Virus record (IMG/VR): IMGVR_UViG_3300044712_001363
Span: 1-20,147 of that record
DNA from: a virus
DNA length: 20,147 bases
Direction: 5' to 3' (one strand)
Every line of letters starts with the position of its first letter. Position 1 is the first letter of the stretch. Shown in pieces: positions 2,132 through 20,147 of the stretch. The notes beneath the pieces are model-generated. The model was not told the origin of the DNA. It did no database searches and saw nothing but the letters and a program-made list of their open reading frames with translations. The position numbers and the translations under genes are program-made.

Positions 2132-2728
2132 ATGCGACGGGCCTACAGCCTGATGACCCTGAAGGAATTCGACGACGAGAAGCGCACGTTCAGTGGCATC
2201 GCCACGACGACCAGCGTCGATCGCATGGGCGACATCGTCGAATCGAAGGGTGCGGAGTTTCAGCTGCCGATCCCGCTGCTCTCGCACCACAACCCGCAGA
2301 AGCCGATCGGCCACGTGACGGCCGCCAAGGTCCTGAAGGACGAGATCCAGATCTCCGGCCACGTGCTGCGCCTCGACGACGCACCGCCCGCCCTTAAGGA
2401 GCGGCTCGACGTCGCCTGGGCGGAGATCAAGTCCGGTCTCGTGCGCGGCCTGTCGATCGGATTCCAGCCGCTGGAGTCGGCCCGCATCGAGGGCTCGTGG
2501 GGCTACCGCTTCACGAAGTGGCTCTGGCTCGAGCTGTCGGCCGTGACGATCCCGGCCAACGGCGACTCGATGGTCACCTCGATCAAGTCGATCGAGCAGC
2601 GCTACGCGGCCACGTTCGGCCAGCGTCGTGGCGCGCCCGTTCGTCTGATCACTCCGCCCGGCGTCTCGGGCAGCAAACCGGCCGCGAAAGGCGGCATCCC
2701 GCTCATTACCCGAGGAGAAACGAAGTGA
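2132..2728 (+). CDS. HK97-type prohead maturation protease
   Basis: The 198-residue protein matches the herpesvirus/HK97 prohead protease fold (peptidase U35 group). This serine protease sits inside the procapsid and trims the capsid scaffold domain. The likely catalytic His is H52 or H53 (LLSHHNPQKPIG), the Ser is S108 in GLSIGF, and E134 lies in the LELSAVTIPAN segment, whose ending in PAN is typical of the family. The C-terminus is short and basic, ending ITRGETK. The ATG at 2132 has GAGG nine bases upstream. The same frame is open far upstream, but that part lies inside terL and is a shadow. The stop overlaps the capsid start (GTGA). Confidence 0.93.
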   Translation: MRRAYSLMTLKEFDDEKRTFSGIATTTSVDRMGDIVESKGAEFQLPIPLLSHHNPQKPIGHVTAAKVLKDEIQISGHVLRLDDAPPALKERLDVAWAEIKSGLVRGLSIGFQPLESARIEGSWGYRFTKWLWLELSAVTIPANGDSMVTSIKSIEQRYAATFGQRRGAPVRLITPPGVSGSKPAAKGGIPLITRGETK

Positions 2729-4143
2729 AGACCTGGGCAGAACAGATCAAGGCCCTCGAGGCCACGCGCGCCGCGAAGGCCGCGCGCATGCAGGAGATCC
2801 TGCAGAAGTCGATGGACGAAGGCCGTTCGACCGACGAGGCCGAGGCGGAGGAGGTCGACTCGATCGACGACGAGATCAAGCGCATCGACGCCGACCTGGT
2901 GCGCCTGCGCCGCGCCGAGCAGCTCGACGTCCAGCGCGGCCGCCCGATCGTGCAGCCGCTCGACGGCGACGATCAGGCCCGCGCCGCCACGCAGCAGCGC
3001 TCGGCCCGTTCGCCGGCGATCATCGTGCCGAACACGAAGGACGTCGACGAGAAGTTCAAGGGCCAGAACTACACGCGCATGGTCATCGCGCGCGCGCTGG
3101 CCTACGCGGCCTTCCAGCAGGGCGAGATGGTCCGCGCCTCGGAGATCGCCGAGAAGCGCTGGGGCAAGACGAACCCGACCCTCGTGTCGCTCATCAAGGC
3201 GAACGAAGTCGCCGGCGGCGGCGCGGGCGCGGGCGAGTGGGGCGCGGAGCTCGTCACGGCGGACAACCGCTACACGGGCGACTTCATCGAGTACCTGAAC
3301 GCCCGCACGGTGTTCTTCCAGCTCCCGCTGCGCGAGGTGCCGGCGAACGTCCAGATCAAGGGGCAGGATGGCGCCTCGACGGCCTACTGGGTCGGTGAGT
3401 CGAAGCCGATCCCGACGACGACCGCCGACTTCAGCGCCGTGAACCTCACGCCGCTCAAGGTGGCAGCCCTGGCCGTGGTCTCGAACGAGCTCATGCGCGA
3501 CTCGAGCCCCTCGGCCGAAGCGCTCGTGCGTGACGCGCTGGTCGAGGCCTCTGCGCAGAAGGTCGACACGACCTTCCTGTCGAGCTCTGCGGCGGTCGCG
3601 GGCGTGTCGCCGGCCGGCATCCTGAACGGTGTCGCCGGCCACAACACCCACGGCAGCACGATCGACGACGTGATCGCGGACATCAAGCAGCTCTACGGCT
3701 ACTTCATCACCGCGAAGAACGCGACCAACCTGGCGTTCGTCATGAACCCGGGCCTCGCGAAGGCGCTGTCGCTCATGCAGAACTCGCTCGGCCAGGATGC
3801 CTTCCCGGGCATCATGGCTTCGGGCGGCACGCTGAAGGGCGATCCGGTGTACACGGGCGAGAACGTCAACGCGTCGCACCTGATCCTGCTGAAGCCGAGC
3901 GACATCTGGCGCATCGGCGACAGCGGCATCCAGGTCTCGATGAGCCGCGAGGCGACGATCGAGATGAACTCGGTCCCGACGGGCGCTTCGGACACGCCGG
4001 TGGCGGCTTCGGCCACCCCGGTGTCGATGTTCCAGAGCGAGTCGACGGCGATCAAGGTCGTGCGGCCGATCAACTTCCAGACGCGACGCTCGGGCGTCGT
4101 GCACCTGATCGACAACGCCGACTACGGCGTCTCGACGACCTGA
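2725..4143 (+). CDS. Major capsid protein, HK97 fold with N-terminal delta (scaffold) domain
   Basis: The 472-residue protein forms the icosahedral shell. Residues 1-75 are charged and coiled-coil forming (KALEATRAAKAARMQEIL and on), as in the HK97 delta domain that acts as built-in scaffold and is removed by the protease. A linker at about 85-110 (AATQQRSARSPAIIVPN) is the likely cleavage area. The HK97-like body follows, with an N-arm and E-loop region around 170-230 (PLREVPANVQIKGQDGASTAYWVGE) and a P/A-domain core, including LAVVSNELMRDSSPSAEALVRDAL, typical of Phage_capsid family members. It starts with GTG at 2725, overlapping the protease stop and preceded by GAGGAG. An intrinsic terminator follows. 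The exact cleavage residue cannot be read from sequence. Confidence 0.94.
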   Translation: MKTWAEQIKALEATRAAKAARMQEILQKSMDEGRSTDEAEAEEVDSIDDEIKRIDADLVRLRRAEQLDVQRGRPIVQPLDGDDQARAATQQRSARSPAIIVPNTKDVDEKFKGQNYTRMVIARALAYAAFQQGEMVRASEIAEKRWGKTNPTLVSLIKANEVAGGGAGAGEWGAELVTADNRYTGDFIEYLNARTVFFQLPLREVPANVQIKGQDGASTAYWVGESKPIPTTTADFSAVNLTPLKVAALAVVSNELMRDSSPSAEALVRDALVEASAQKVDTTFLSSSAAVAGVSPAGILNGVAGHNTHGSTIDDVIADIKQLYGYFITAKNATNLAFVMNPGLAKALSLMQNSLGQDAFPGIMASGGTLKGDPVYTGENVNASHLILLKPSDIWRIGDSGIQVSMSREATIEMNSVPTGASDTPVAASATPVSMFQSESTAIKVVRPINFQTRRSGVVHLIDNADYGVSTT

Positions 4144-5999: not shown

Positions 6000-6379
6000 G
6001 TGACGCGGCCCTCGTCGCCCGGGAGATCCAGGACCTCGCCAGCGCGGTCGGCGACGTCGCCGGCGCCGTGCGCGAGAGTGCCGGGCCGACGGTAGAGGTC
6101 AACGTACCGCAGCAGGCCCCGCCGTCGGTCACGGTCAACGTGCCAGAGCAGGCCCCACCCGTCGTGAACGTCGCGCCGTCGTCGGCCGAGGTCACCGTCA
6201 ACGTGCCGCAGCAGGCCCCGCCCGTCGTGCAGGTCTCGCCTGCACCGGTCTCGGTGAGTCCGCAGATCAACGTCGAGGCGGCCGAGCCCCAGGCGTACGA
6301 GGTGATCATCACCGAGCGCGACCGTGAGGGCATGATCCGCCGCTTCGTCATCCAGCCGGTAACGGTCGTCGCCGCATGA
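5996..6379 (+). CDS. Repeat-containing Pro/Val-rich phage protein, unknown function
   Basis: The 127-residue protein has an N-terminal helix (residues 1-28), then a middle of alternating short beta stretches and Pro turns built from three copies of VNVPxQAPP, and a C-terminal beta-like segment (AYEVIITERDREGMIRRFVIQPVTVV). Short proteins with such Val-Pro repeats occur after portals in other phages, but I know no assigned role. A minor head or linker protein is possible. It is joined on both sides by ATGA overlaps (5996 and 6376), so it is very probably translated with the portal and the 851-aa protein. Confidence 0.72.
   Translation: MSDAALVAREIQDLASAVGDVAGAVRESAGPTVEVNVPQQAPPSVTVNVPEQAPPVVNVAPSSAEVTVNVPQQAPPVVQVSPAPVSVSPQINVEAAEPQAYEVIITERDREGMIRRFVIQPVTVVAA
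6098..6222 (+). repeat. Three in-frame copies of a 26-base repeat coding VNVPxQAPP
   Basis: Near-identical copies start at 6098, 6134 and 6197, each reading GTCAACGTnCC then AGCAGGCCCC. The spacings are 36 and 63 bases, both multiples of three, so the reading frame is kept. Copies 1 and 3 differ at one position within the unit. Copy 2 has a few changes, among them Glu in place of the first Gln. The pattern suggests in-frame duplication and supports copy-number change by recombination. Confidence 0.85.
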
Positions 6380-8931: not shown

Positions 8932-8944
8932 CTAGGGAACAGAG

Positions 8945-10315
8945 ATGCCCAAGATCACAGACGGCGACGACCTGAACGTCGGCACCGAGATCACGATCGA
9001 CACCGCCGCAAAGACCTTCACGCTGGTCGCCGCGGGCAACCTCGTGGCGAAAGACGGCGTGACCCTGCAGGCGCTCTACAGCAAGTTCATCAAGCTGTGG
9101 GAGACCTCGACTTACAACAAGTATCCCTTCCCGATGTACGCGATCGACGCGCTGTCGGGTCAGTTCCAGTTCGGCTTCGACGGCGGCAGCTACAACGGCT
9201 GGAAGCCGGCGAACGACACGACCCGCACCTACCTCCGGGACGGCGGCTGGTCGGAGTACAGCGCGGCCGGCGTGCTGAACCGGCAGTACGTCGGCATCGT
9301 CGCGCTGGCCTCTGGGTTCCCGGCGGGCGCACAGTTCTACTACCAGCGCGCGAGCGGCGGCGCGGCAGCGAACTTCACGTTCACGGACGCGCCGAACGAG
9401 GGCATACAGGTCTACGGCGACGCGTCGAACGGCAACTTCGACAACCGCACCTACTTCAAGCTCTTCTGCCGCGAGTACAACTACACCTACGACGATGCGG
9501 TCCTCGCCGACGTCGGCCTCACGGCCACCGGCGCGTTTAAGGTCTCGCTGCCGATCGCGGTCTCGTCCGACCTGAAGATCCAGGCGAACGACGCAGCGAT
9601 GACCGGTGCGCCCTACTCAAGCCTCGGCCTCGAGTACTTCGGCACGAACCAGACCGGCTACGACATCGGCGCCTATCCGTTCCGGGTCGTCGTCGACAAC
9701 ACGACGGCCGCGGCGACGCTCGAGCAGATCTACACCTGGGTGCAGTACAAGCTGCGCCAGGCGGGCGACATCGACGACGGCGCCGGCACGGTCAACGGCA
9801 AGACTGCCAACGCCCTGATGTACTTCGTCGGCGACACGCTCTACACCACGCAGGGCGTGTTCATCGATGGCGTGATCCCCGCCGACCTGAACCGGGTCGT
9901 GTTCCTCGACCAGGACAGCGTCCAGCGCACCTACCCGTATGCGTCAGCCGGCACGCTGAGCTTCAACGGCGTGCTGGTGTCCGGCGGGACTGGGTACTAC
10001 CGGATGTACTTCACCAACGACGATGCCGGCTCGAACGCTGGCAACGACTACGGCACGTCGGGCGCGATCACCGTGAACGACAAAGACGGCAGCCCGATCG
10101 CCGGCACGATCTCCGGCGCCAGCATCTCGTTCACCTACGACTACGACGGCAATGTGCAGCGAGGCGCCGGCTCCGCCGGCGACGACGCGCCCATCACCAT
10201 CGTCGCCGGCAACAAGGGCGTGGCAAAGCCGGTCGTCGCAACGGGCACGATCTCACGCTCGAAGGGCATCTCGATTTCGCTGGTGGCCGAGCAGGACCGC
10301 GCGTACGTCGCGTAA
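8945..10315 (+). CDS. Probable virion structural protein, 456 aa
   Basis: The product is Gly/Ala/Asp/Tyr-rich and beta-rich, with no signal peptide. Residues 1-300 follow a pattern known in phage virion proteins lying near the neck genes (MPKITDGDDLNVGTEITID; LYSKFIKLWETSTYNKYPFPMYAIDALSGQFQFGFDG; TNQTGYDIGAYPFRVVVDN). The last 130 residues look like a separate beta domain (SFNGVLVSGGTGYYRMYFTNDDAG, then a Gly-rich stretch). The end, EQDRAYVA, resembles the ADRNYTA end of the preceding 851-aa protein. The ATG at 8945 has AGGGA six bases upstream. The gene is followed by the 182-aa member of what appears to be one structural set. Function is unknown; decoration, collar or fibre roles are possible. 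Confidence 0.72.
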   Translation: MPKITDGDDLNVGTEITIDTAAKTFTLVAAGNLVAKDGVTLQALYSKFIKLWETSTYNKYPFPMYAIDALSGQFQFGFDGGSYNGWKPANDTTRTYLRDGGWSEYSAAGVLNRQYVGIVALASGFPAGAQFYYQRASGGAAANFTFTDAPNEGIQVYGDASNGNFDNRTYFKLFCREYNYTYDDAVLADVGLTATGAFKVSLPIAVSSDLKIQANDAAMTGAPYSSLGLEYFGTNQTGYDIGAYPFRVVVDNTTAAATLEQIYTWVQYKLRQAGDIDDGAGTVNGKTANALMYFVGDTLYTTQGVFIDGVIPADLNRVVFLDQDSVQRTYPYASAGTLSFNGVLVSGGTGYYRMYFTNDDAGSNAGNDYGTSGAITVNDKDGSPIAGTISGASISFTYDYDGNVQRGAGSAGDDAPITIVAGNKGVAKPVVATGTISRSKGISISLVAEQDRAYVA

Positions 10316-10324
10316 GACCCTGCC

Positions 10325-10873
10325 GTGGCACTCACCTTCGACGGTCCGAACAAGCGCATCGTCCTGAGTTCAGGCACGACGTCGCTGTCGGTGCGCGACC
10401 TGTGGTCGCGCTGGGTCGACTGGGCCCTGACCGGCGACAACTCGAAGTACCCGATCGCGCTCGAGGTGGTGGGCGGCAACGACATCGACGTCAGCGCGGG
10501 CACGAAGATTCCGGTGTACGCATACCTGCAGAACGGCTGGCGCATCCGGCCGCAGGAGGCGAGCCACACGCTGAACGTCGGAGACGGCGTTCTACTGGTC
10601 GATGGCGGCGGCGACCCGTTCGTCAACACGACAGGCAGCTACGTGGTGCGCATCAACTACCAGCAGCCGGTGCAGGCGATCAGCTTCGACTCTGGCGGTG
10701 GCGGCGGAGGACTCACGGTCACCCAGGCTCAGCAGCTGCTCGAGGTGTACCAGCGTCTCGGCCTGGACGCGGCTGCGCCGCTCACCCAGACCGCGGCTGA
10801 GATCTCGACGCCAGACTGGTCGCTCGAGGTCGCCCAGCCCACGGTCGGCACTGTCACGGTGACGCGCCAGTGA
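10325..10873 (+). CDS. Probable virion protein of a widespread phage family, 182 aa
   Basis: The 182-residue product belongs to a recognisable but unnamed phage family. Its beta-rich body opens with LTFDGPNKRIVLSSGTTSLSVRDLWSRWVDWALTGDNSKYPIALEVVGGND and ends near QAISFDS. A Gly-rich hinge of seven Gly (around residue 125) follows, then a helical tail LTVTQAQQLLEVYQRLGLDAAAPLTQT. A two-domain protein on a flexible hinge would suit a trimeric or clip-on virion part, but this is inference. It starts with GTG at 10325, nine bases after the previous stop. It ends in a GTGA overlap with the 79-aa gene. Confidence 0.72.
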   Translation: MALTFDGPNKRIVLSSGTTSLSVRDLWSRWVDWALTGDNSKYPIALEVVGGNDIDVSAGTKIPVYAYLQNGWRIRPQEASHTLNVGDGVLLVDGGGDPFVNTTGSYVVRINYQQPVQAISFDSGGGGGGLTVTQAQQLLEVYQRLGLDAAAPLTQTAAEISTPDWSLEVAQPTVGTVTVTRQ

Positions 10874-11109
10874 GCCTGAACCCGCGCGCGATCGCGACAC
10901 TCGGCGTCGGCTTCGGCGCTACGGCCGTCGCCTACCTCGGACTTTGGCCGGTCGGCACGCCGCCAGTAGAGCCCCCCGTGCCGCCGGCGGTGTTCGGCGG
11001 ATTCGCGGCGCCGTCGCTGACGGTGCCTGGTCTACGGATATCACGCGACGACCGGGACCTGCTCGAGCTCGTCCCGATCCTCGTGGAGGTGATCAATGGC
11101 AGACGCTAA
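10870..11109 (+). CDS. Small protein with one hydrophobic segment, unknown function
   Basis: This is a 79-residue product. Residues 7-27 (AIATLGVGFGATAVAYLGLWP) are hydrophobic enough for one membrane span or a buried helix. A Pro-rich linker and a short C-terminal segment LISRDDRDLLELVPILVEV-like follow. I recognise similar small proteins in phage structural operons but no assigned role. It starts with GTG at 10870 inside the previous stop and overlaps the next gene by 14 bases. The overlap carries the ribosome site of that gene, so translation of the two is likely coupled. Confidence 0.62.
   Translation: MSLNPRAIATLGVGFGATAVAYLGLWPVGTPPVEPPVPPAVFGGFAAPSLTVPGLRISRDDRDLLELVPILVEVINGRR
11085..11094 (+). 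promoter_or_regulatory. Near-complete anti-Shine-Dalgarno match before the 257-aa gene
   Basis: GGAGGTGATC at 11085-11094 is a ten-base perfect complement of the bacterial 16S rRNA 3' end. The GGAGG core sits six bases before the ATG at 11096, which fixes that start. The site lies inside the end of the 79-aa gene and is among the strongest in the window. Confidence 0.75.
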
Positions 11110-11869
11110 GGAACTGGCCGCACAGGCGGTCGATGCGGTGCGCCGCTATGTGGCGGAGGCGTTCTCGAAGGCTGAGCAGCGGCTCACGACGCTCTCCGAG
11201 AACCTCGAGGCGCTGGTGGGTCGAGTCAAGGACCTGGAAGAGCGTCAGGCGCCCGAGCCGAGCGAGCCACCGACCCATCTGACGCCGGACGAAATCCGGC
11301 AGCTTTGGTACGACCTGCATGCCCGCGAGTTTGCAGGCTGGCAGAACGAGTTCATGGCCAAGGCGCACGAGGCCCTCGCGCGCCTGGTCGAACAGCGGCC
11401 CGCACCCCGGGACGGCCGCGACGCCCTCGAGATCGAGGTGCTGCCCTCGATCGACCGGGCGAAGAGCTATCCGCGGGGGACCTTCGCTACCCACCACGGC
11501 GGCCTCGTGCGCGCACTGCGCCGCACGGACCCGCTGCAGGAGGACGATCTCTCGACCGCGGGCTGGCAGGTGCTCGTCGACGGCGTGCGCGAGATCTCCG
11601 TCGAGCCACGCGGCGAGCGCGCGTTCGCGATCTCGGTCGCGAGGACCTCCGGCGCCGCCAAGGTCGTCGAGGCTCGCATGAACGTCGTGCTCGATCGCGG
11701 GGTCTTCCGCGAGGCTCACGCCTACGAGCACGGCGACGGCGTGACCTTCGGCGGCTCGTACTGGATTGCGCAGAAGGACGCGCCCGAGGGCAAGCCGGGC
11801 ACGAGCCCCGACTGGCGACTTGCCGTGAAGAAAGGCCGCGATGGCGCCGACGCGAGGGCTGAGCGGTGA
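11096..11869 (+). CDS. Coiled-coil virion protein with two carbohydrate-binding-like segments
   Basis: The 257-residue protein starts with a coiled coil (about 1-52) and a Pro-rich break, then a second helical stretch (62-100). Two small aromatic/Gly modules follow that resemble CBM5/12 chitin/glucan-binding folds. The first covers about 124-160 (SYPRGTFATHHGGLVRA, then GWQVLV). The second covers about 203-243 (VFREAHAYEHGDGVTFGGSYWIAQ, then TSPDWRLAV). Short DGRDA and GRDGAD pieces are reminiscent of collagen-like linkers common in this phage family. The arrangement suggests a virion-exposed trimer that can bind sugars. It lies just before the neck genes and the glycosyltransferase cassette, and ends in a GTGA overlap with the connector gene. 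The CBM reading is by pattern only. Confidence 0.7.
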   Translation: MADAKELAAQAVDAVRRYVAEAFSKAEQRLTTLSENLEALVGRVKDLEERQAPEPSEPPTHLTPDEIRQLWYDLHAREFAGWQNEFMAKAHEALARLVEQRPAPRDGRDALEIEVLPSIDRAKSYPRGTFATHHGGLVRALRRTDPLQEDDLSTAGWQVLVDGVREISVEPRGERAFAISVARTSGAAKVVEARMNVVLDRGVFREAHAYEHGDGVTFGGSYWIAQKDAPEGKPGTSPDWRLAVKKGRDGADARAER

Positions 11870-12231
11870 CTCAGCTCATCACGCTCGCCCAGGCCAAGGC
11901 GCACCTGCGGCGGGACCATTCGCTCGACGACGACGACATCACGCTCAAGATCGAGGCCGCCTCCGCCGCGATCCTGCAGTACGTCGGCGACAACCAGTAC
12001 CGGATCCTGGACACGGGCGGCGACGTGTTGGCCTTCGATACCAGCACCGAGCAGGCGGACCTGCGCATGCTGCACGTGTGCCAGCAGGCGACGAAGCTGC
12101 TGCTGACGCATTGGGACAAGAACCGCGACGGCACGGGCGGGGAGGCCGTCGAAGCCTCCGCGGGCTACGGCTACCTGCCGCTGCCCGTCGTGTCGCTGCT
12201 CTACCCGTACCGGGACCCGACGATCGCATGA
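11866..12231 (+). CDS. Head-tail connector protein (HK97 gp6-like)
   Basis: The 121-residue product matches the gp6-like head-tail connector family (also called DNA packaging protein), which binds under the portal ring and starts the neck. The typical opening, ITLAQAKAHLRRDHSLDDDDITLKIEAASAAILQYVG, gives the two N-terminal helices. A later helix HVCQQATKLLLTHWDKNRDG and the ending LPLPVVSLLYPYRDPTIA also fit members of this family. It starts with GTG at 11866 inside the previous stop. It ends in an ATGA overlap with a glycan-related gene instead of running straight into the head-closure gene. Confidence 0.88.
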   Translation: MTQLITLAQAKAHLRRDHSLDDDDITLKIEAASAAILQYVGDNQYRILDTGGDVLAFDTSTEQADLRMLHVCQQATKLLLTHWDKNRDGTGGEAVEASAGYGYLPLPVVSLLYPYRDPTIA

Positions 12232-12884
12232 CGACGCCTTGGGTGGTCGAGCCCGAATGGAAGGGCCAGACCGCAGCGATCCTCGCATCCGGACCGAGCC
12301 TGACGCGCGAGCAGTGCGAGGCGGTTCGGGGCCGGTGCCGCGTGATCGCGGTCAACAACCAGGGCATCGACACGGACTGCGACGGCGTCCGGGTTCCGGC
12401 GTTCGCGCCCTGGGCGGACATCCTGTACGCGGCCGACGCGAAGTGGTGGCGCGGCTACGAGGACCGCGCGCTCAAGTTCGCCGGCCGCAAGGTGACGGTC
12501 CGGCACACGTTGCCGTGGCCGGAGATCTACTCGCTGACGCAGTCGTACGACTACCCAAGCTACGACCCGCGCCCGGGGCACGTGGTGAGCGGGGGCAACT
12601 CCGGCTACCAGGCGCTGCACCTGGCCGTGCAGCTCGGCGCGAGGCGTGTGCTGTTGCTTGGGTTCGACATGAAGGACGGGCGCAACGGCCGCCGGCACTG
12701 GTTCGGATCGCACCCGGGAAAGCTCAATTCCCGCGCGAGCTTCGCCAGCTGGCGCAGCGCGATGGAGAAGTTCTCGAAGGTCCTGGAACAGATGCAGATC
12801 GAGGTCCTGAACTGCACGCCGGACACCGCGCTGCGGTGCTTCCGTCGGTGCTCGATCGAGGAGGCCCTGCGTGAGCGGCTTTGA
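12228..12884 (+). CDS. DUF115/MptE-like or sialyltransferase-like Rossmann protein
   Basis: The 218-residue product resembles phage-borne DUF115/MptE-like proteins, a Rossmann-type fold related to some sialyltransferase-like enzymes. SGPSLT is at 21-26 (nucleotide-binding-like loop) and AVNN at 41-44. ADILYAADAKWW is at 63-74, SGGNSGYQAL at 121-130, and LLGFDM at 143-148 before an aromatic segment RRHWFGSHPG. The family suggests transfer of, or binding to, a nucleotide-activated sugar; donor and acceptor are unknown. The gene lies between two neck genes, with an ATGA overlap upstream and a 14-base overlap downstream. No signal peptide or membrane span is seen, so the product should act in the cytoplasm. 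The exact family name is uncertain; the association with glycan enzymes rests on motifs and neighbours. Confidence 0.7.
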   Translation: MTTPWVVEPEWKGQTAAILASGPSLTREQCEAVRGRCRVIAVNNQGIDTDCDGVRVPAFAPWADILYAADAKWWRGYEDRALKFAGRKVTVRHTLPWPEIYSLTQSYDYPSYDPRPGHVVSGGNSGYQALHLAVQLGARRVLLLGFDMKDGRNGRRHWFGSHPGKLNSRASFASWRSAMEKFSKVLEQMQIEVLNCTPDTALRCFRRCSIEEALRERL

Positions 12885-13242
12885 TCCCGGACGGTTGCGG
12901 CACGTCGTCGACATCGAACGGCGCGTCGAGACTCAGGACCCGGTTTCGGGCGGGCTCACGACGAGCTGGCAGCCGATCTTCGAAAACGTGCGCGCGGCGA
13001 TCGAGCCGCTGTCGGTGCGCGAGGCGATCGCGGCCGGCGCCGACCAGTCGAAGGTCTCCGCCCGCATCGTGATTGGCTTCCGGCCTGGCCTCGAGGCTGC
13101 GCAGCGCATCGTGCACGGCACGAAGTGCTGCAGCTCCTACCTCCAGCCCGAGTACTGGAATCCAGAGGGGTTCCTGCGCGACAGGGACACGGGCCTCGAG
13201 TACGTGACGATCCCCTGCAGCCAGGGAGTGAACGAGGGGTGA
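12871..13242 (+). CDS. Head-closure / head-tail adaptor protein (SPP1 gp16-like)
   Basis: The 123-residue product matches the phage head-tail joining family: GRLRHVVDIERRVETQDPVSGGLTTSWQPIFENVRAAIEPLSVREAIAAGADQSKVSARIVIGFRPGLEAAQRIVHGTKCC is the usual beta-barrel layout (opening with RH-VDI-R, then W-x-x-I--NVRA-IEPLS-RE, then RI--R-G). It closes the packaged head below the connector. GAGGAGG six bases upstream fixes the GTG start at 12871, which lies inside the end of the DUF115-like gene. The end overlaps the GT2 gene (GTGA). It is sandwiched between glycan-enzyme genes. Confidence 0.87.
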   Translation: MSGFDPGRLRHVVDIERRVETQDPVSGGLTTSWQPIFENVRAAIEPLSVREAIAAGADQSKVSARIVIGFRPGLEAAQRIVHGTKCCSSYLQPEYWNPEGFLRDRDTGLEYVTIPCSQGVNEG

Positions 13243-14003
13243 CACTTGAACGCTTCACGCTGATCGTGCCGTTCTACCGGAACGTGCAGATGCTGCGCGA
13301 GCAGGTGCGCAACTGGGAGGAGTACCCGGAAGCGGTGTCGATCGTGCTGGTCGACGACGGCAGCCCGGAAGACGCGCGCTCGATCGTGCTCAAGCACGCC
13401 TCCCCGGCGCTGCTGCAGCGCATCGCGCTCTACCGCATCGAGGTGGACATCCCGTGGAACCGCGGAGGCGCCCGCAATCTGGGCACTGCGCGCGCGGAGA
13501 CCGACTGGATCGTGCACGTCGACATCGATCACGTGCTGCCGGCCGCGGCCGCTCTGTCGCTGCTGCAGTTCTCGCCGGACCCCTGGCGCTGGTATCGGTT
13601 CGAGCGCTTCCGCTTGGGCCGCGCCGACGAGACCCGCCGCAAGGACAAGATTCCGGATCACGCCGAGTACGGCAGGATCCATCCGCACATCGACTCGTAC
13701 CTGTGCACGCGCGATCTCTACTGGGCCGCCGGCGGCTACAACGAAGACTTCTCGGGTTGCCTGGGCGGCGGCTCGCCATTCCTGGCCGAGCTGGAGCGCG
13801 CGGGCGGCGCCCCGCTGATCGCCCCCGAGCCGGCGCACCTGATCGTGTTCACGCGCAGCGCGGTGCCGGATGCCTCCGACCACACGCTGAGCCGGGACCG
13901 GCTGGAGTTCTCGCGCAGGAAGGCGCAGATGCGCGGCCGCTTCAAGGGCCACGACCCGATACGTTTCCCGTGGAACAAGCAGGACCTATGTACCCGCGCG
14001 TAG
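13239..14003 (+). CDS. Glycosyltransferase family 2 (GT-A fold)
   Basis: The 254-residue product shows a GT2 inverting glycosyltransferase pattern. The opening is FTLIVPFYRNVQMLREQVRNW. The nucleotide-binding acidic pair follows at 39-40 in VLVDDGS, then NRGGARNLGTA at 74-84, and a metal-binding DxD (DID, 95-97) in WIVHVDIDHVL. The acceptor region WAAGGYNEDFSGCLGGGSPFLAEL (162-185) takes the place of the usual GG-DE-F-G---ED motif but lacks its Glu-Asp, so the catalytic base may be missing or shifted. No membrane anchor is seen, so the product is a cytoplasmic enzyme, unlike bactoprenol-linked GtrB types. It starts with GTG at 13239 inside the head-closure stop, after GAGGGG-like purines. It overlaps the next gene by 16 bases. 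Confidence 0.85.
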   Translation: MTLERFTLIVPFYRNVQMLREQVRNWEEYPEAVSIVLVDDGSPEDARSIVLKHASPALLQRIALYRIEVDIPWNRGGARNLGTARAETDWIVHVDIDHVLPAAAALSLLQFSPDPWRWYRFERFRLGRADETRRKDKIPDHAEYGRIHPHIDSYLCTRDLYWAAGGYNEDFSGCLGGGSPFLAELERAGGAPLIAPEPAHLIVFTRSAVPDASDHTLSRDRLEFSRRKAQMRGRFKGHDPIRFPWNKQDLCTRA

Positions 14004-14659
14004 CCGGCGAGTTCGACACGGTGCGCCGGCTGCTCGAGGGCCGGTCGATCGCGCGTTTCGGCGACGGCGAGCTCAAGATCCTGGGTGGGGCCGGCTACAG
14101 CCGCGAGCCTGCGAACGGCAAGCTGACGCGCGAGATGCTCAACCTCGTGCGGGAGCCGAAAGAAGGCTGCCTGATTGGCATCCCGACGATGGACCCGGCG
14201 GGCCCGAAGTACACCAACTGGCTGCGCCACGAGGAGCGGTTCTGCCGGTTCTTCCGCGCGGACGACGGCCGCGAGTACGTCTCGGCGTTCATCACCCGGC
14301 CTGACTCCGCGGCCGACAACCTCGAGTCCCGCGAGTACTGCGAGCTGATCGCGCAGCTGTGGGTCGGCCGGCGGGCGGTCGTCGTGTCCGAGAGCTTCAG
14401 CAAGCTGCTCACCTGCGTGAGGCTCGCGACCGAGACCGTGCACATCGAGTGCCCGAGCGTCGGCGCCTTCGGCATCATCAAGACGCTCGAGTCCGCGGTC
14501 GTGAAGGCCCGGCCGGACGTCGCGCTGCTCTCCTGCGGGCCCACGGCCACCTGCCTCGCCAACCGGCTGGCCGGGCGCGGCATCCAGGCAATCGACCTCG
14601 GCAGCATCGGCGGGCTCCTGGCGCGCTGGCTGCCCGATCGCAAGAAACGAAGGGGATGA
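13988..14659 (+). CDS. GT-D fold glycosyltransferase (DUF1792 / SP_1767-like)
   Basis: The 223-residue protein fits the GT-D family, defined by the C-terminal domain of a streptococcal adhesin glycosyltransferase. The diagnostic ARFGDGE is at residues 22-28, with the metal-binding DxE formed by D26 and E28. Further family segments are VVVSESFSKLL (131-141), LLSCGPTATCLANRLAGRGIQAIDLGSIGGLL (180-211) and an aromatic WL-HEERFCRFF region. Known members extend O-linked glycans on serine-rich proteins, which makes a protein-glycan role here plausible but unproven. The ATG at 13988 lies 16 bases inside the GT2 gene, with a weak AGGA just before it. The next gene starts one base after the stop, with AAGGGG as its ribosome site. 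Confidence 0.85.
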   Translation: MYPRVAGEFDTVRRLLEGRSIARFGDGELKILGGAGYSREPANGKLTREMLNLVREPKEGCLIGIPTMDPAGPKYTNWLRHEERFCRFFRADDGREYVSAFITRPDSAADNLESREYCELIAQLWVGRRAVVVSESFSKLLTCVRLATETVHIECPSVGAFGIIKTLESAVVKARPDVALLSCGPTATCLANRLAGRGIQAIDLGSIGGLLARWLPDRKKRRG

Positions 14660-14660
14660 C

Positions 14661-15389
14661 GTGAGACTCACCGAAGAAGAGCTGGCGACGATGCCGGCGA
14701 AGACGAAGAAGGATGCCGAGACGGTCGCGCTCTACCTCGAGCACGACTTCCTCGAGGCCTACGCGCTGCACACGGCTCGCCGGATCGAGACGACCGGCTA
14801 CCAGGCCGCGGTCGGCGCCGGCGACAACTGGGACGCCCACGGGAAGCTGCAGCGCGACTTCCTGATCTCGCAGGGGATGAAGCCGCACCACTCGCTGCTC
14901 GACATCGGCTGCGGCACCGGTCGCCTGGCGCGCCAGGTCGTGCCGTACTTGGACCCCGGCCACTACCTCGGGATCGACATCGCGCCGGCGGCCGTGCGCG
15001 CCGCGTACGAGCTCGCGGCGACCGAGGGCTGGGGCAACCGCGAGCCGGGCTTCCTGGTCGGCGAGGAGCTGCCCGGCCGCACGTTCGATTACCTCTGGGC
15101 GTTCTCGGTGTTCATCCACCTGCCGCAGGACATCATGGAAGCCGTCATGCGCCGTGCCGCGGCGGTCATGAACGCCGGCAGCCGCTTTTACTGGGCGTAC
15201 GTGCCCGAGGAGCGCTCGTGGCGCTCGGGCGTGAAGCAGTTCCGGCACACGCTCGCGGATTACCAGCGCGCGGCGCAGCAGGCGGGGCTCACCTTCGAGG
15301 AGGTGCCGAACTGGATCGAGGCCGCCGGTTACGCGCCAGGGCGCTGGAGTGGCAGCCAGCGAGTGGCGCTCTCCCGGAAGCAGGCCTGA
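14661..15389 (+). CDS. Class I SAM-dependent methyltransferase
   Basis: The 242-residue product is a Rossmann-type methyltransferase. Motif I is LLDIGCGTGRLARQ (DIGCGTG at 81-87). The ribose-binding acidic residue follows in YLGIDIAP (D106), and then FDYLWAFSVFIHLP, a motif-IV-like stretch common in small-molecule and sugar methyltransferases, and a C-terminal LADYQRAAQQAGL segment. There is no DNA methyltransferase motif (no DPPY or NPPY), so base methylation is unlikely. In this cluster the acceptor is most likely a glycan. The GTG at 14661 has AAGGGG five bases upstream. The stop overlaps the FkbM gene (TGATG). The real substrate cannot be deduced from the sequence. Confidence 0.85.
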   Translation: MRLTEEELATMPAKTKKDAETVALYLEHDFLEAYALHTARRIETTGYQAAVGAGDNWDAHGKLQRDFLISQGMKPHHSLLDIGCGTGRLARQVVPYLDPGHYLGIDIAPAAVRAAYELAATEGWGNREPGFLVGEELPGRTFDYLWAFSVFIHLPQDIMEAVMRRAAAVMNAGSRFYWAYVPEERSWRSGVKQFRHTLADYQRAAQQAGLTFEEVPNWIEAAGYAPGRWSGSQRVALSRKQA

Positions 15390-16006
15390 TGCGCATCCCG
15401 GCCGCATGGCGCCGTCCGGCGTACCTACCCGCTGAGACGCGGATCGGTCAGCCCTACGTGGTGGACTCTATGCTGCCGTTCGTCCGGAACTTCGGCTGCG
15501 TGCTACAGGCGGGCGGGCACGTTGGCGTCTGGGGCGCCGAGCTGTCGCGCCACTTCAAGTCCGTGCTCTGCTTCGAGCCCCTGCCGCACTTGTGGAAGGC
15601 CTGCGTCGATGCCGTGACGGCGAAGAATGTCCTGACGCTACCCTGCGCGCTCTCGCGCACGACTGGCTCGGTGACCATCAGCGTGGGTGCGGTCGAGCGC
15701 TTCGGCGGATCTTCGGCCGTGGCCGAGCAGGGCACGCCGTTCCCGGCGATCGCGCTGGACGACCTGCCGGATCATCAGGTCGCGAAGCTCGGCGCCATCA
15801 TGCTCGACATCGAGGGTCACGAGCTTCCGGCGCTGCAGGGCGCCAGCCGGCTGCTCGCACAGTGGAAGCCCGTCGTTGTCGTCGAAGAGAACGCCAAGAG
15901 CCTGCGCTATCGGCAGGCCGGCGAGATTGCCGCGTACCTCGGGAAGTTCGGCTACCGCCAGGTGGCGGCCGTTGGACACGACCTGATCTTCGCCTCGACG
16001 CCATGA
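15389..16006 (+). CDS. FkbM family methyltransferase (short form)
   Basis: The 205-residue protein has the FkbM/Methyltransf_21 signature. AGGHVGVWGAELS at 41-53 is the SAM loop (usual form GANIGxxT/S). CFEPLP is at 61-66, ALSRTTGSVTISVG at 87-100 is the small sheet that often reads A-S-G, and MLDIEGHELPALQGA at 138-152 is the diagnostic DxEG-E--L-G block. FkbM enzymes O-methylate sugars or polyketides, and many sit in glycan clusters. It is near the short end of the family length. A 1-base start/stop overlap upstream and an ATGA overlap downstream bind it into the cassette. I infer a capping O-methyl group on the phage glycan. Confidence 0.85.
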   Translation: MRIPAAWRRPAYLPAETRIGQPYVVDSMLPFVRNFGCVLQAGGHVGVWGAELSRHFKSVLCFEPLPHLWKACVDAVTAKNVLTLPCALSRTTGSVTISVGAVERFGGSSAVAEQGTPFPAIALDDLPDHQVAKLGAIMLDIEGHELPALQGASRLLAQWKPVVVVEENAKSLRYRQAGEIAAYLGKFGYRQVAAVGHDLIFASTP

Positions 16007-16713
16007 TCTCGATCGTCTGCTGGCTCTGGAACGGCACCGGCCTCGGTGACCGGCCCTACCAGCCTGCGCACGTCAACACGCTGCGCCGGGCGGTGGCTCG
16101 TCACATGAGCCTGCCGCACCGGTTCGTCTGCGTCGCCGACGACCCGCACGGCTTCGACCCGGAAGTCGAGGTGTTCGAAACGCCTGCGGAGGCGCGGAAG
16201 GTCGGCGAGCTGCGCACACCCGAGGGTGGGCGGTTTCCGAGCTGCTACCGGCGGCTCTGGAACTTCTCCCCGGCGGCGACGGTGCTCGGCGATCGGCTGC
16301 TCTGCATCGACATCGACCTGGTGCCGACGCGGGACTGGGCGCCGCTCTTCAGTCGCCATGAGGACTTCGTCGGCTGGCGGCCGTATCGCGACTGGGGGCA
16401 GAAGCTCAGGTTTGGCGGCGGCAGCTACCTGCTGAAGGCCGGCAGCCGTACAGACGTGTGGACGAAGTTCCGCGGGCCAGAGTCGATCGCCGCGGCGCGG
16501 CGGGCCGGGTTCCGCGGCAGCGACCAGGCGTGGATCAGCTTCATGCTGGGCGCGCGCGAGCCTTACTACGGGCGCGAGGCCGGGATCTATTCGATCCGCG
16601 ACATGAAGGGCAAGGAGCACGTGCTCCCGCCCGATGCGCGGATGGTGCACTTCAACGGACCGCAGAAGCCCTGGGCCAGTCCGCTGGCGTGGGTCAAGGA
16701 GCATTGGCGGTGA
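16003..16713 (+). CDS. Glycosyltransferase-like protein with DxD motif
   Basis: The 236-residue product resembles cytoplasmic retaining-type GT-A enzymes found in phages and prophages. It has the N-terminal strand ISIVCWLWNG, then LPHRFVCVADDP and FPSCYRRLWNFS. The DxD DID is at 103-105 in LLCIDIDLVP, SDQAWIS at 173-179, and a C-terminal metal/acceptor-type HFNGPQKPW at 216-224. The order DxD, then SDQAW, then HF-G--KPW parallels GT8-like proteins, but I cannot fix the CAZy family. It starts in an ATGA overlap with the FkbM gene and ends in a GTGA overlap with the gp10-like neck gene, so it is the last member of the inserted cassette. Confidence 0.8.
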   Translation: MISIVCWLWNGTGLGDRPYQPAHVNTLRRAVARHMSLPHRFVCVADDPHGFDPEVEVFETPAEARKVGELRTPEGGRFPSCYRRLWNFSPAATVLGDRLLCIDIDLVPTRDWAPLFSRHEDFVGWRPYRDWGQKLRFGGGSYLLKAGSRTDVWTKFRGPESIAAARRAGFRGSDQAWISFMLGAREPYYGREAGIYSIRDMKGKEHVLPPDARMVHFNGPQKPWASPLAWVKEHWR

Positions 16714-17198
16714 CGCAGATCGCGATCAAGGGCGGGCGTGAGCTGGCCGCGAAACTCGCAGGCTTCAGCGAGAAGCTGCGCGAGGCGGCGGGCCGGCGCG
16801 CAGCGCGCAAAGCCATGGGCGTGGTGCGCGCGGACGCGCGTCGGCGCCTGCAGGGCATCGACGACCCTGGCACCCCGACCGACATCGGCAAGAACGTGTA
16901 CATCCAGCAGTCGCGCAGCCAGAGCCGCGCGATCGGCGGCGTCGTCATGCGCGTCGGCATCCTGGGCGGCGCCCGCCCGGACCGTTCCCTCAACCAGAAC
17001 CGGAAGACCGGCCAATCGCCGAACGGTCACCCGGGCGGCGATACGCGCTACTGGCGGTTCGTCGAGCTGGGCACCGAGAACGTCGCGCCGCGGCCGTTCC
17101 TGCGACCCGCGCTCGAGCAGAACTCCGGCGCCGTGCTCGAGGCCCTCACCGCCGCGCTCGCGAAGGAAGTCGAGCGGATCGCCGCGGAGGGCAAGTGA
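16710..17198 (+). CDS. HK97 gp10-like neck/tail protein
   Basis: The 162-residue product belongs to the HK97-gp10 family (tail completion or neck component at the head-tail joint). Seen here are the opening IAIKGGRELAAKLAGFSEKLREAAGRRAARKAMGVVRADARRRL and the near-invariant C-terminal YWRFVELGTENVAPRPFLRPAL. The mid-region loop (RSLNQNRKTGQSPNGHPGGDTRY) is Gly/Asn-rich. It starts with GTG at 16710 inside the last glycosyltransferase stop. It is followed by the tail terminator with a TGATG junction, the normal gene order for these two. Confidence 0.88.
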   Translation: MTQIAIKGGRELAAKLAGFSEKLREAAGRRAARKAMGVVRADARRRLQGIDDPGTPTDIGKNVYIQQSRSQSRAIGGVVMRVGILGGARPDRSLNQNRKTGQSPNGHPGGDTRYWRFVELGTENVAPRPFLRPALEQNSGAVLEALTAALAKEVERIAAEGK

Positions 17199-17569
17199 TG
17201 CACCCGCCGCTCTATGCCGTCTGCGCCGCGGACACCTCGGTGCAGGACCTGCTGACCGGTCCCGACGGACTGCTGCGCCTGTACCCGTTCGGCGAGGCGC
17301 GCCAGCAGGAGATCTACCCGTACGCCGTGTGGTCCGTCGTCGGTGGCCAGCCCGAGAACTACCTCGGCGATCGACCGAACGTCGACAGCGCGAGCACCCA
17401 GGTGGACGTGTACGCCCGCAGCTGGTCGAGCGCCCGCGAGGTGTACGCCGCGCTGCGCGACGCGATCGAGGGCGCGGCCTACGTGAGCGCCTTCAACGGC
17501 GAGATGCGCGACCCGGAGACGAAGTCCTACCGGGTCTCGTTCACCGTCGACTGGATCACGAATCGATGA
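17198..17569 (+). CDS. Tail terminator / tail completion protein (DUF3168-like)
   Basis: The 123-residue product matches DUF3168-type tail terminators, which cap the tail tube and bind the neck. Examples are MHPPLYAVCAADTSVQDLLTG, YPYAVWSVVGGQPENYLGDRPNVDSASTQVDVYARSWSSAREVYAALRDAIEG and a final strand YRVSFTVDWITNR. I chose the ATG at 17198 over the GTG at 17195 because GGAGG at 17186-17190 then has a seven-base spacer. The overlap with the gp10-like stop is one base. The end overlaps the 48-aa ORF (ATGA). Confidence 0.87.
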   Translation: MHPPLYAVCAADTSVQDLLTGPDGLLRLYPFGEARQQEIYPYAVWSVVGGQPENYLGDRPNVDSASTQVDVYARSWSSAREVYAALRDAIEGAAYVSAFNGEMRDPETKSYRVSFTVDWITNR

Positions 17570-17829: not shown

Positions 17830-18294
17830 ATGGCCAAGAAAACGCAAGGCACCGAGCTTTACTTCATCGACCCCGACACCTTCGCGGTGCGCAAGGTCGG
17901 CTGCGTGACGGCGCTCAACGGCTTGACCGCGGGCCGCGACCAGATCGAGACCACGTGCCTCGATTCGGAAGCCCGCGAGTACATGGCCGGCATGGCGACG
18001 CCGGGCGCGGCGCAGTTCACGATCAACTTCGATCCGGCCGACGCGAGCCACGTGCGCCTGCACGAGCTCTACGTCGCCGGCACGACGCTCGACTTCGCCC
18101 TCGGCTGGTCCGACGGCACGGGCATCGCGCCGACCTCCGATTCGACGGCGTTCGACCTGCCGACGACCCGGACGTGGATCGCGTTCGAAGGCTACGTTTC
18201 CGACCTGCCGTTCGACTTCGCGCTCAACAGCGTGGTGTCGAGCCAGGTCTCCATCCAGGTGTCGGGCTTCCCGACGCTTGTGCCGAAGGTCTGA
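17830..18294 (+). CDS. Major tail (tube) protein
   Basis: The 154-residue product fits a phage tail tube protein, the repeated ring subunit of the tail. It opens MAKKTQGTELYFIDPDTFAVRKVGCVTALNGLTAGRDQIETTCLDS, continues AGMATPGAAQFTINFDP and ends VSSQVSIQVSGFPTLVPKV, the layout of lambda gpV-like beta-sandwich tubes. GGAGG (17816-17820) with a nine-base spacer fixes the ATG at 17830. An upstream in-frame ATG at 17767 has no ribosome site. It is followed at once by the chaperone pair and the tape measure, the standard order. It is the first gene after a gap, consistent with a need for high expression. Confidence 0.88.
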   Translation: MAKKTQGTELYFIDPDTFAVRKVGCVTALNGLTAGRDQIETTCLDSEAREYMAGMATPGAAQFTINFDPADASHVRLHELYVAGTTLDFALGWSDGTGIAPTSDSTAFDLPTTRTWIAFEGYVSDLPFDFALNSVVSSQVSIQVSGFPTLVPKV

Positions 18295-18953: not shown

Positions 18954-20147
18954 TGGGCAGCAAGAGCCTGGGCAGCCTGACGGTCGACCTGCTGCTCGAA
19001 ATGGGCGGCTTCAAGGCCGGCATGGACAAGGCGCAGCGCGAGACCGAGCGCGCGACGCAGCTGCAGCGCAACCTGCAGAAGGAGGGCGAGCGCCTGGCGC
19101 AGTCCCTCGCCACGCCGTTCGAGAAGCTGAACCGTTCGGTGGCGCGCTACAACGAGCTGCTGAAACAGGGCGCGATCAACCAGGAGACGCACGCCCGCGC
19201 CGTGGCCAAGGCCCGCAAGGAGTACGAGGGAGCCATGAAGGCGAGCGGCGGGTTCCTCTCCACGCTCGGCCGGATGCGCGGGCTGCTCGCCGGCGTCGGC
19301 ATCGCGATCTCCGGCGTCACGTTCGTCAACCTCGCGCGCGAGGCGATCGAGTTCGGCGACGAGATCGACAAGGCCTCGAAGAAGACCGGCATTGGCGCGG
19401 AGCGGCTCTCGGAGCTCGCCTACGCGGCCGGGCAGAGCGACATTCAGTTCGAGGCGCTGGGCACCGCGCTCAAGAAGATGCAGGTCGGCCTGAGCCAGGC
19501 CGGGAGCGGCTCGAAGACCGCGAACGAAACGCTGGCCGCGCTCGGGCTGACGATCGGCGAGCTGCAGCGGCTTGCGCCCGAGGATCAGTTCGAGCTGCTC
19601 GCGGACCGCATCGCGGCCCTGCAGGACCCCGCAGACCGCACGCGCGCGGCGGTGGAGCTGTTCGGCCGCGCCGGCGCCGACCTGCTGCCACTGTTCGAGC
19701 AGGGCGCGGCGGGCATCCGGGCGGCCAGGGAGGAAGCGCACGAGGTCGCTGCGGTGATGGGCGATGCGGCCACCCGGGAGTTCGCCGCGGCGGATGACGC
19801 GATCAAGCGTCTGAGCAAGACCTGGGACGCGCTCGGCCGCACGCTGACGATTGCTGTCGCGCCGGCGCTCACCGTGACCGTGCAGGCGCTGCAGAACTCC
19901 ATCGCCTGGGCGATCGACGGCGAGTCGAAGGTGCTGTCGCTGGCGGAGGCCTGGGAGGCGCTTGGCCGCGCCGTCGAGAAGAACGGTATCTTCGGCACCA
20001 GCGTCTTCGACGTGATGCGCGAGGCGCAGGCCGGCGCCCCGCAGGTGACGCAGAGGTTTTCCACCGGCACGCGGCTGCCGCCAGGTGGGCGCAACCGCCG
20101 GCCGTTCGTGCCTGGGTTCCTGCCCGAAGACGACGATCCGGCCAAGC
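18953..20147 (+). CDS. Tape measure protein, N-terminal part (runs off the window)
   Basis: The ATG at 18953 overlaps the chaperone stop by one base, and the frame is open to the window end, giving 398 visible residues with no stop. It is the tail length ruler. Residues 1-95 form a coiled coil with the typical opening GSLTVDLLLEMGGFKAGMDKAQRETERA. A hydrophobic helix GLLAGVGIAISGVTFVNLA lies at about 110-128. The family block EFGDEIDKASKKTGIGAERLSELAYAAGQSDIQFEALGTALKKMQVGL follows, then more helices to ALTVTVQALQNSIAWAIDG. Near the end is a Pro/Arg-rich stretch (RLPPGGRNRRPFVPGFLPEDDDP). The full length, and hence the tail length, cannot be judged here. Confidence 0.93.
   Translation, partial: MGSKSLGSLTVDLLLEMGGFKAGMDKAQRETERATQLQRNLQKEGERLAQSLATPFEKLNRSVARYNELLKQGAINQETHARAVAKARKEYEGAMKASGGFLSTLGRMRGLLAGVGIAISGVTFVNLAREAIEFGDEIDKASKKTGIGAERLSELAYAAGQSDIQFEALGTALKKMQVGLSQAGSGSKTANETLAALGLTIGELQRLAPEDQFELLADRIAALQDPADRTRAAVELFGRAGADLLPLFEQGAAGIRAAREEAHEVAAVMGDAATREFAAADDAIKRLSKTWDALGRTLTIAVAPALTVTVQALQNSIAWAIDGESKVLSLAEAWEALGRAVEKNGIFGTSVFDVMREAQAGAPQVTQRFSTGTRLPPGGRNRRPFVPGFLPEDDDPAK

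Follow-up and report, generated by a model that had tools for sequence, protein, structure and literature searches.

Why should a tailed phage carry enzymes of sugar transfer and methylation among the genes that build the neck of its particle? The question is raised by the IMG/VR record IMGVR_UViG_3300044712_001363, a linear virus record of 20,147 bases that was analysed over its whole length (positions 1 to 20,147; here called the window). Gene calls place six enzyme genes in this record, interspersed with those of the gp6-like, head-closure, gp10-like and tail-terminator proteins. Our results indicate that these genes probably form a phage-borne protein-glycosylation cassette, acting in the cytoplasm to O-glycosylate and methylate a virion protein with donors of the host. 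The initial annotation of this DNA had pointed to the same activity; it overlooked that one of the six, a DUF115/MptE-like protein (hereafter DUF115), is a widespread neck-anchored member, with relatives in phages D3, PAJU2 and P1.

Six enzymes within the neck operon

Across positions 11866-17569, neighbouring genes overlap by 1-16 bases or stand a single base apart at every junction, those between enzyme and structural genes included (Table 1), and the interleaving and tight spacing initially described are thus borne out by the gene calls. The same annotation had treated the six genes as a single cassette. All six are present, but the head-closure gene stands between DUF115 and the other five enzymes, and sister phages keep DUF115 while lacking those five.

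The arrangement recurs elsewhere. A sister contig of 46,906 bases belongs to the same phage (100% identical through the window's first 8.1 kb, then 99.2% for the other 12.3 kb), and the 299 bases that its two ends have in common (96.7% identity) suggest that it is a near-complete genome. Four diverged contigs (L003, L004, L005 and L043; 54-80% protein identity) carry GT2, GT-D and the DxD enzyme upstream of gp10, some of them with a methyltransferase or FkbM as well; L004 and L005 extend further, and there DUF115 (after gp6) and then head closure precede the GT2/GT-D/DxD block, as in the window. The block in the sister contig and in the four diverged ones indicates that the arrangement is due neither to chance nor to an assembly error. 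In the sister phages L015-L021, DUF115 alone is retained, lying after gp6 and before head closure; gp10 follows head closure directly, which marks an empty site for the five-gene block. A search with the head-closure protein alone reached two contigs. The GT2/GT-D/DxD core was also seen in contigs where no neck homologue could be recognised (L006, L007, L009, L047 and L048), the DxD gene often being present twice, and portal and terminase searches gave no placement of the core relative to structural genes in records of this type.

The families first assigned to the six enzymes hold, by Pfam, PHROG and TIGR matches and by fold models. GT-D scores 73 bits against PF08759, where the curated cut-off is 27, and its nearest solved relatives are GalT1/dGT1 (4phr, 1e-15). 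The best solved match of the class I methyltransferase is a D-glucose O-methyltransferase (6uv6, 4.8e-6), and a tblastn search of phage records with this enzyme gave nothing; FkbM lies above the cut-off of both PF05050 and TIGR01444. Both methyltransferases would act on sugar. The DxD enzyme stays below the cut-off of PF01501; its AlphaFold2 model (predicted local distance difference test, pLDDT, 90.9) has the GT-A/GT8 fold of glycogenin and LgtC (Foldseek E 4e-9, probability 1.00), and D103 and D105 are invariant in an alignment of 20 sequences. For GT2, a phmmer search found no solved relative. The highest 19-residue hydropathy among the six enzymes is 1.48, which bears out the earlier statement that none of them has a membrane span. 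Their ratios of nonsynonymous to synonymous substitution (dN/dS, 0-0.40) fall within the range of the structural genes, indicating that the enzymes are under purifying selection.

DUF115 itself is a protein of 218 residues and one domain, without the full three-domain architecture of the Maf enzymes. It matches the Pfam MptE-like model PF01973 below the cut-off (8e-6), and a sequence-profile search against solved structures returned chance matches only. The only credible structural neighbour of its predicted model (pLDDT 90.5) is the sialyltransferase CST-II (Foldseek probability 1.00, TMq 0.54, E 6.6e-3). A xylanase-inhibitor complex, the top Foldseek entry by E-value, was rejected as spurious (TM-score 0.21). 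In an alignment of 26 viral sequences the motifs GPS and HWxGxHP are kept and G22, S24, D70, G122 and D147 are invariant; so is H157, while H162 is conserved in at least 90%, and one of these two may correspond to the catalytic His of CST-II.

Table 1. Genes of the neck operon, followed by other structural genes of the window.
Feature	Position	Strand	Matches and junction to the next gene
gp6-like head-tail connector (Ad1)	11866..12231	+	PF05135 1e-5, phrog_40 2e-18, TIGR01560; 4-base overlap with DUF115
DUF115/MptE-like, GT42 (CST-II) fold, candidate protein glycosyltransferase	12228..12884	+	phrog_4603 2e-44; 14-base overlap with head closure
Head closure protein Hc1	12871..13242	+	PF05521 6e-19, phrog_25, TIGR01563; 4-base overlap with GT2
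GT2 glycosyltransferase	13239..14003	+	PF00535 2e-10, PF10111, VDDGS and DID motifs; 16-base overlap with GT-D
GT-D fold glycosyltransferase (DUF1792)	13988..14659	+	PF08759 3.5e-20; 1-base gap to methyltransferase
Class I S-adenosylmethionine methyltransferase, sugar-O-methyltransferase-like	14661..15389	+	PF08242 7.5e-15; 1-base overlap with FkbM
FkbM-family methyltransferase	15389..16006	+	PF05050 1.3e-11, TIGR01444, phrog_8156 7e-27; 4-base overlap with DxD glycosyltransferase
GT8-like glycosyltransferase, DxD (D103, D105)	16003..16713	+	phrog_1962 5.5e-7, GT8 fold by model; 4-base overlap with gp10-like
HK97 gp10-like neck/tail completion protein	16710..17198	+	TIGR01725 2.9e-17, phrog_5; 1-base overlap with tail terminator
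Tail terminator	17198..17569	+	PF11367 4e-17, phrog_78
Major capsid protein	2725..4143	+	PF05065 1e-24; C-terminus ...ADYGVSTT
Structural protein encoded just before gp6, akin to the C-terminal portion of fused portals	11096..11869	+	phrog_1289 9e-54; phrog_2271 positions 706-857 of 859
Major tail (tube) protein	17830..18294	+	PF16460 5e-59

DUF115 relatives and the genes that accompany them

Relatives of DUF115 were gathered by scans of virus contigs, bacterial genomes and phage records. Among the phage records they were found in the Pseudomonas phages D3 and PAJU2, in P1 (PmgO), in Caulobacter phage CcrSC and in Tetraselmis viridis virus S20; the bacterial ones lie in prophage-like loci, mainly of Alphaproteobacteria, with some in Beta- and Gammaproteobacteria and a few in other metagenome bins. 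When structural anchors were placed with profiles built from the window proteins, all 47 DUF115 genes anchored on both sides fell within the interval from capsid or portal to tail, a figure that describes phage DUF115 genes only, since the query came from a phage, and that includes a few loci closely related to one another. Of the 47, 18 lie exactly between gp6 and head closure. Several phages have two copies. Virus S20 (L054, NC_020840) is deposited with a green alga as host, yet it is a tailed phage with the standard siphophage gene order. In P1 (L057 5983-8502) the DUF115-like PmgO and PmgP, together with PmgQ of the DxD/GT8 family, make up a three-gene sugar-transferase set that is annotated only as putative morphogenetic functions. 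The genes pmgO, pmgP and pmgQ have been scored nonessential for lytic growth (PMC10695390), and such dispensability fits decoration rather than assembly.

The genes found beside DUF115 also bear on its role. From the gaps between DUF115 and head closure 83 genes were called, and 59 genes just downstream at the same loci served as controls. About a quarter of the gap genes are head-tail adaptors. Sugar-type modifiers account for 15-25 of the 83, against 1 of the 59 controls, the count being given as an estimated range because the tallied families overlap on the same protein; with the lowest count, the Fisher p is 0.0014. The families comprise methyltransferases (including TylF and FkbM), GT2, GT9, GT1-like enzymes, phrog_1962, sulfotransferases and a hexapeptide transferase.

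It could be argued that insertions of unrelated accessory genes are simply tolerated in the head-neck interval, and that the enzymes have varied jobs. Homing endonuclease, transposase and DNA-methylase matches do occur in the same gap at some loci, and L015 and L018 lack the five-gene block, their head closure adjoining gp10. This explanation accounts for why some phages have the block and others do not; it fails to account for the convergence of the gap genes on sugar-type transferases and methyltransferases, or for the fact that GT2, GT-D and the DxD enzyme remain together in diverged phages, and we therefore regard it as unlikely.

Glycosylation of the virion and the alternatives

The overlaps with neck genes, the lack of membrane anchors and the existence of relatives that act in the cytoplasm on proteins together suggest that a virion protein is modified during assembly. 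The six enzymes and the neck proteins would be translated together late in infection, their genes forming one overlapping operon. The glycosyltransferases would draw on host nucleotide sugars in the cytoplasm to attach a short glycan to a virion protein, most likely at Ser or Thr of the major capsid protein or of the tail tube, and to extend it there. DUF115, GT42-like and anchored in the neck, may either initiate the glycan or terminate it, GT2, GT-D and the GT8-like enzyme may extend and branch the glycan, and the two methyltransferases would cap it with methyl groups. We infer the late co-expression, the activity, the acceptor, the donors and the order of steps from what was observed: gene order, families, predicted folds, conservation, and the lack of spans and of the nucleotide-sugar families searched. 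As to the donors, the initial annotation had noted no genes for nucleotide-sugar synthesis, and indeed the three families searched (PF02348, PF01370 and PF00483) were found in none of 12 related virus records, the near-complete sister genome included; their absence implies that donors should be those of the host. The proposal of cytoplasmic virion-protein glycosylation with host donors is thus supported in part, by inference from the protein-glycan-building relatives (dGT1/GalT1 and glycogenin), the overlaps, the lack of spans and the lack of donor families.

By analogy with the Corndog-type mycobacteriophages described below, capsid and tail tube are the foremost acceptor candidates: the major capsid protein would come first, and the major tail (tube) protein may be a second. 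The capsid C-terminus reads VSTT in the window and ATDTST or SSDTST in other cassette-bearing relatives, and GTAGSP in the sisters that have DUF115 only; in L040, whose contig ends before the block, it reads AATTGT. Two proteins of 851 and 456 residues encoded between portal and neck were set aside as acceptors, given that the cassette occurs without either of them in L004 and L005 and that L018 has both without the five-gene block.

Several points weigh against this reading. The Ser/Thr-rich capsid C-terminus is a weak pattern, drawn from few and related sequences, and the fold match of DUF115 to CST-II is moderate. The relatives of DUF115 were seeded from a phage query, which favours phages, although gene position was not a selection criterion; moreover, the DUF115 genes of P1 and CcrSC lie outside any neck operon. 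Of the six profiles, GT2 alone matched the Corndog-type enzymes, and weakly (26 bits); the other five, including DUF115, GT-D, FkbM and GT8, gave nothing. In the literature, we came across no biochemical or mass-spectrometric study of any of the cassette enzymes.

A different target for the same chemistry would be a surface glycan of the host, lipopolysaccharide or capsule, altered for serotype change or superinfection block, with the neck position a chance insertion. The phage is probably temperate, as the sister genome encodes an integrase, a ParB-like and a RecT/Bet-like protein; phage D3 is serotype-converting; and phrog_1962 and phrog_841 are labelled moron/host-takeover in PHROGs. Nevertheless, a gtr-type serotype-conversion cassette has a membrane flippase and a polytopic transferase, whereas the six window enzymes have no hydrophobic span, and the head-neck interval occupied in all the anchored cases fits late lytic rather than lysogenic expression. 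An effect on the host surface thus seems improbable.

Still less credit can be given to the idea that DUF115, instead of being a glycosyltransferase, has a part in the structure or assembly of the neck, or is the pterin diphosphokinase that its Pfam name suggests. It is true that DUF115 is the most neck-bound member, that it persists without the other enzymes (L015 and L018) and that MptE-like is its best Pfam name. Against this, the PF01973 match is below the cut-off and the best credible fold match is a sialyltransferase, the GPS and HWxGxHP motifs are conserved, the P1 homologues were scored nonessential and several phages have two copies. Finally, viral glycosyltransferases that hypermodify DNA exist (a reference cited in PMC12619734), but decoration of modified DNA bases is very improbable here, considering that no thymidylate-synthase-type base hydroxymethylase (PF00303) was found in a search whose positive control worked, that Tet_JBP was not seen either, in a search without a positive control, and that the substrates of the nearest solved relatives are proteins or oligosaccharides.

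Within the favoured reading, that of virion-protein glycosylation, a more specific version can be put forward only tentatively. DUF115 might be a neck-encoded GT42-like protein O-glycosyltransferase, conserved across phages that infect Gram-negative bacteria and with relatives in D3 and P1, that attaches an acid sugar activated by cytidine monophosphate (CMP) to the virion, the other enzymes elaborating the glycan in a lineage-specific manner. The mostly proteobacterial prophages, the CST-II fold, the absence of donor genes and the acceptance of 3-deoxy-D-manno-octulosonic acid (Kdo) as donor by a Maf enzyme, the last as described in PMC11339370, lead to this idea. Since CMP-Kdo is available in any host that makes lipopolysaccharide, it would be a likely donor, and no donor genes of the phage would be needed.

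Known systems and implications

Glycosylation of virions by phage-encoded enzymes is known, and is documented in a few mycobacteriophages. In cluster O mycobacteriophages, an O-methyltransferase and glycosyltransferases are encoded between portal and protease; these enzymes were detected in infected cells, though not in the virions themselves (PMC4351075). Capsid and tail tube were later reported to be modified at their C-termini by the Corndog-type enzymes (PMC12619734, PMC11600133 and PMC12363180). We compared the window with this type on the gene tables of Firecracker and Catdawg. The Corndogvirus cassette (Corndog gp35-38; Catdawg gp33-36) likewise consists of an O-methyltransferase and three glycosyltransferases, overlapping and in the head operon, but it lies between portal and protease instead of in the neck and is made of a TylF-type methyltransferase, a GT2-like, a GT25-like and one unassigned enzyme. 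As in the Corndog/Che8 type, the glycosyltransferases of the window are adjoined by putative sugar-type O-methyltransferases, here the class I enzyme and FkbM.

Closer counterparts in gene content are found among other phages. S20 has the six families (two copies of DUF115, and GT-D, methyltransferase, GT2, FkbM and DxD glycosyltransferase) after its capsid gene and before that of head closure, although the whole block precedes head closure, the gene order is another and the proteins are 24-39% identical; its record does not remark on them. D3 (orf7, orf12 and orf13) and PAJU2 (gp10-gp12) have a neck DUF115, with a methyltransferase and an unknown protein before gp10, but GT2, GT-D, FkbM and the DxD glycosyltransferase were not found in them. 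In P1, PmgO, PmgP and PmgQ are close together as well, but outside the neck operon, and no GT-D, GT2 or methyltransferase was seen adjoining. The combination had initially been considered possibly undescribed. The six families already stand in GenBank in S20, and the general arrangement is known from the Corndog-type mycobacteriophages; what stands is that the S20 case has gone unremarked, as far as we found. In the literature searched, where subscription journals were poorly covered, we found neither a description of the neck clustering of DUF115 nor a paper joining DUF115, phage and glycosyltransferase, or head-tail connector with virion glycosylation enzymes. Judged from sequence, the other enzyme families, the other host group, the neck position and DUF115 as a marker appear to be new here.

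Parallels also exist outside phages. The central Maf_flag10 domain of the Maf flagellin O-glycosyltransferases is pfam01973 and resembles CST-II (PMC11339370), a resemblance that DUF115 shares by model, without the N- and C-terminal domains of Maf. In the Fap1 serine-rich-adhesin pathway, dGT1 adds glucose to the glycan on the Fap1 adhesin protein in a sequential glycosylation (PMC5063993). The GT-D of the window is of the same DUF1792 family as dGT1/GalT1, but has no second C-terminal GT-A domain.

The order of the window as a whole is terminase, protease, capsid, portal, several unassigned genes, neck, tail tube and tape measure. At the tape-measure end (19821-20147) identity to the sister contig drops to 88.5%, whereas the first 8.1 kb are identical. 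The protein encoded just upstream of gp6 aligns with the C-terminal end of a portal PHROG family (Table 1), and may be fused to the portal in some phages. Between the portal and that gene (5996-11109), proteins of 127, 851, 456 and 182 residues have no Pfam or PHROG match, and one of 79 residues fell outside that scan. The genes of the 851-, 456- and 182-residue proteins are present in L018 and absent from L004 and L015, a patchiness that indicates a separate, swappable module, perhaps of capsid fibres.

Taken together, these observations raise the possibility that it is common for phages of Gram-negative hosts to attach sugars to their own particles. If so, a habit comparable to the virion glycosylation of mycobacteriophages would be widespread in phages of Proteobacteria, at a fixed genomic place, and DUF115, which databases label only as putative sialyltransferase, MptE-like or morphogenetic protein, would be its recognisable marker gene. 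The long-unexplained genes of D3 and P1 would then have a likely function, open to direct testing in laboratory phages. The sugar coats of phages bear on particle stability, on adsorption and on recognition by antibodies.

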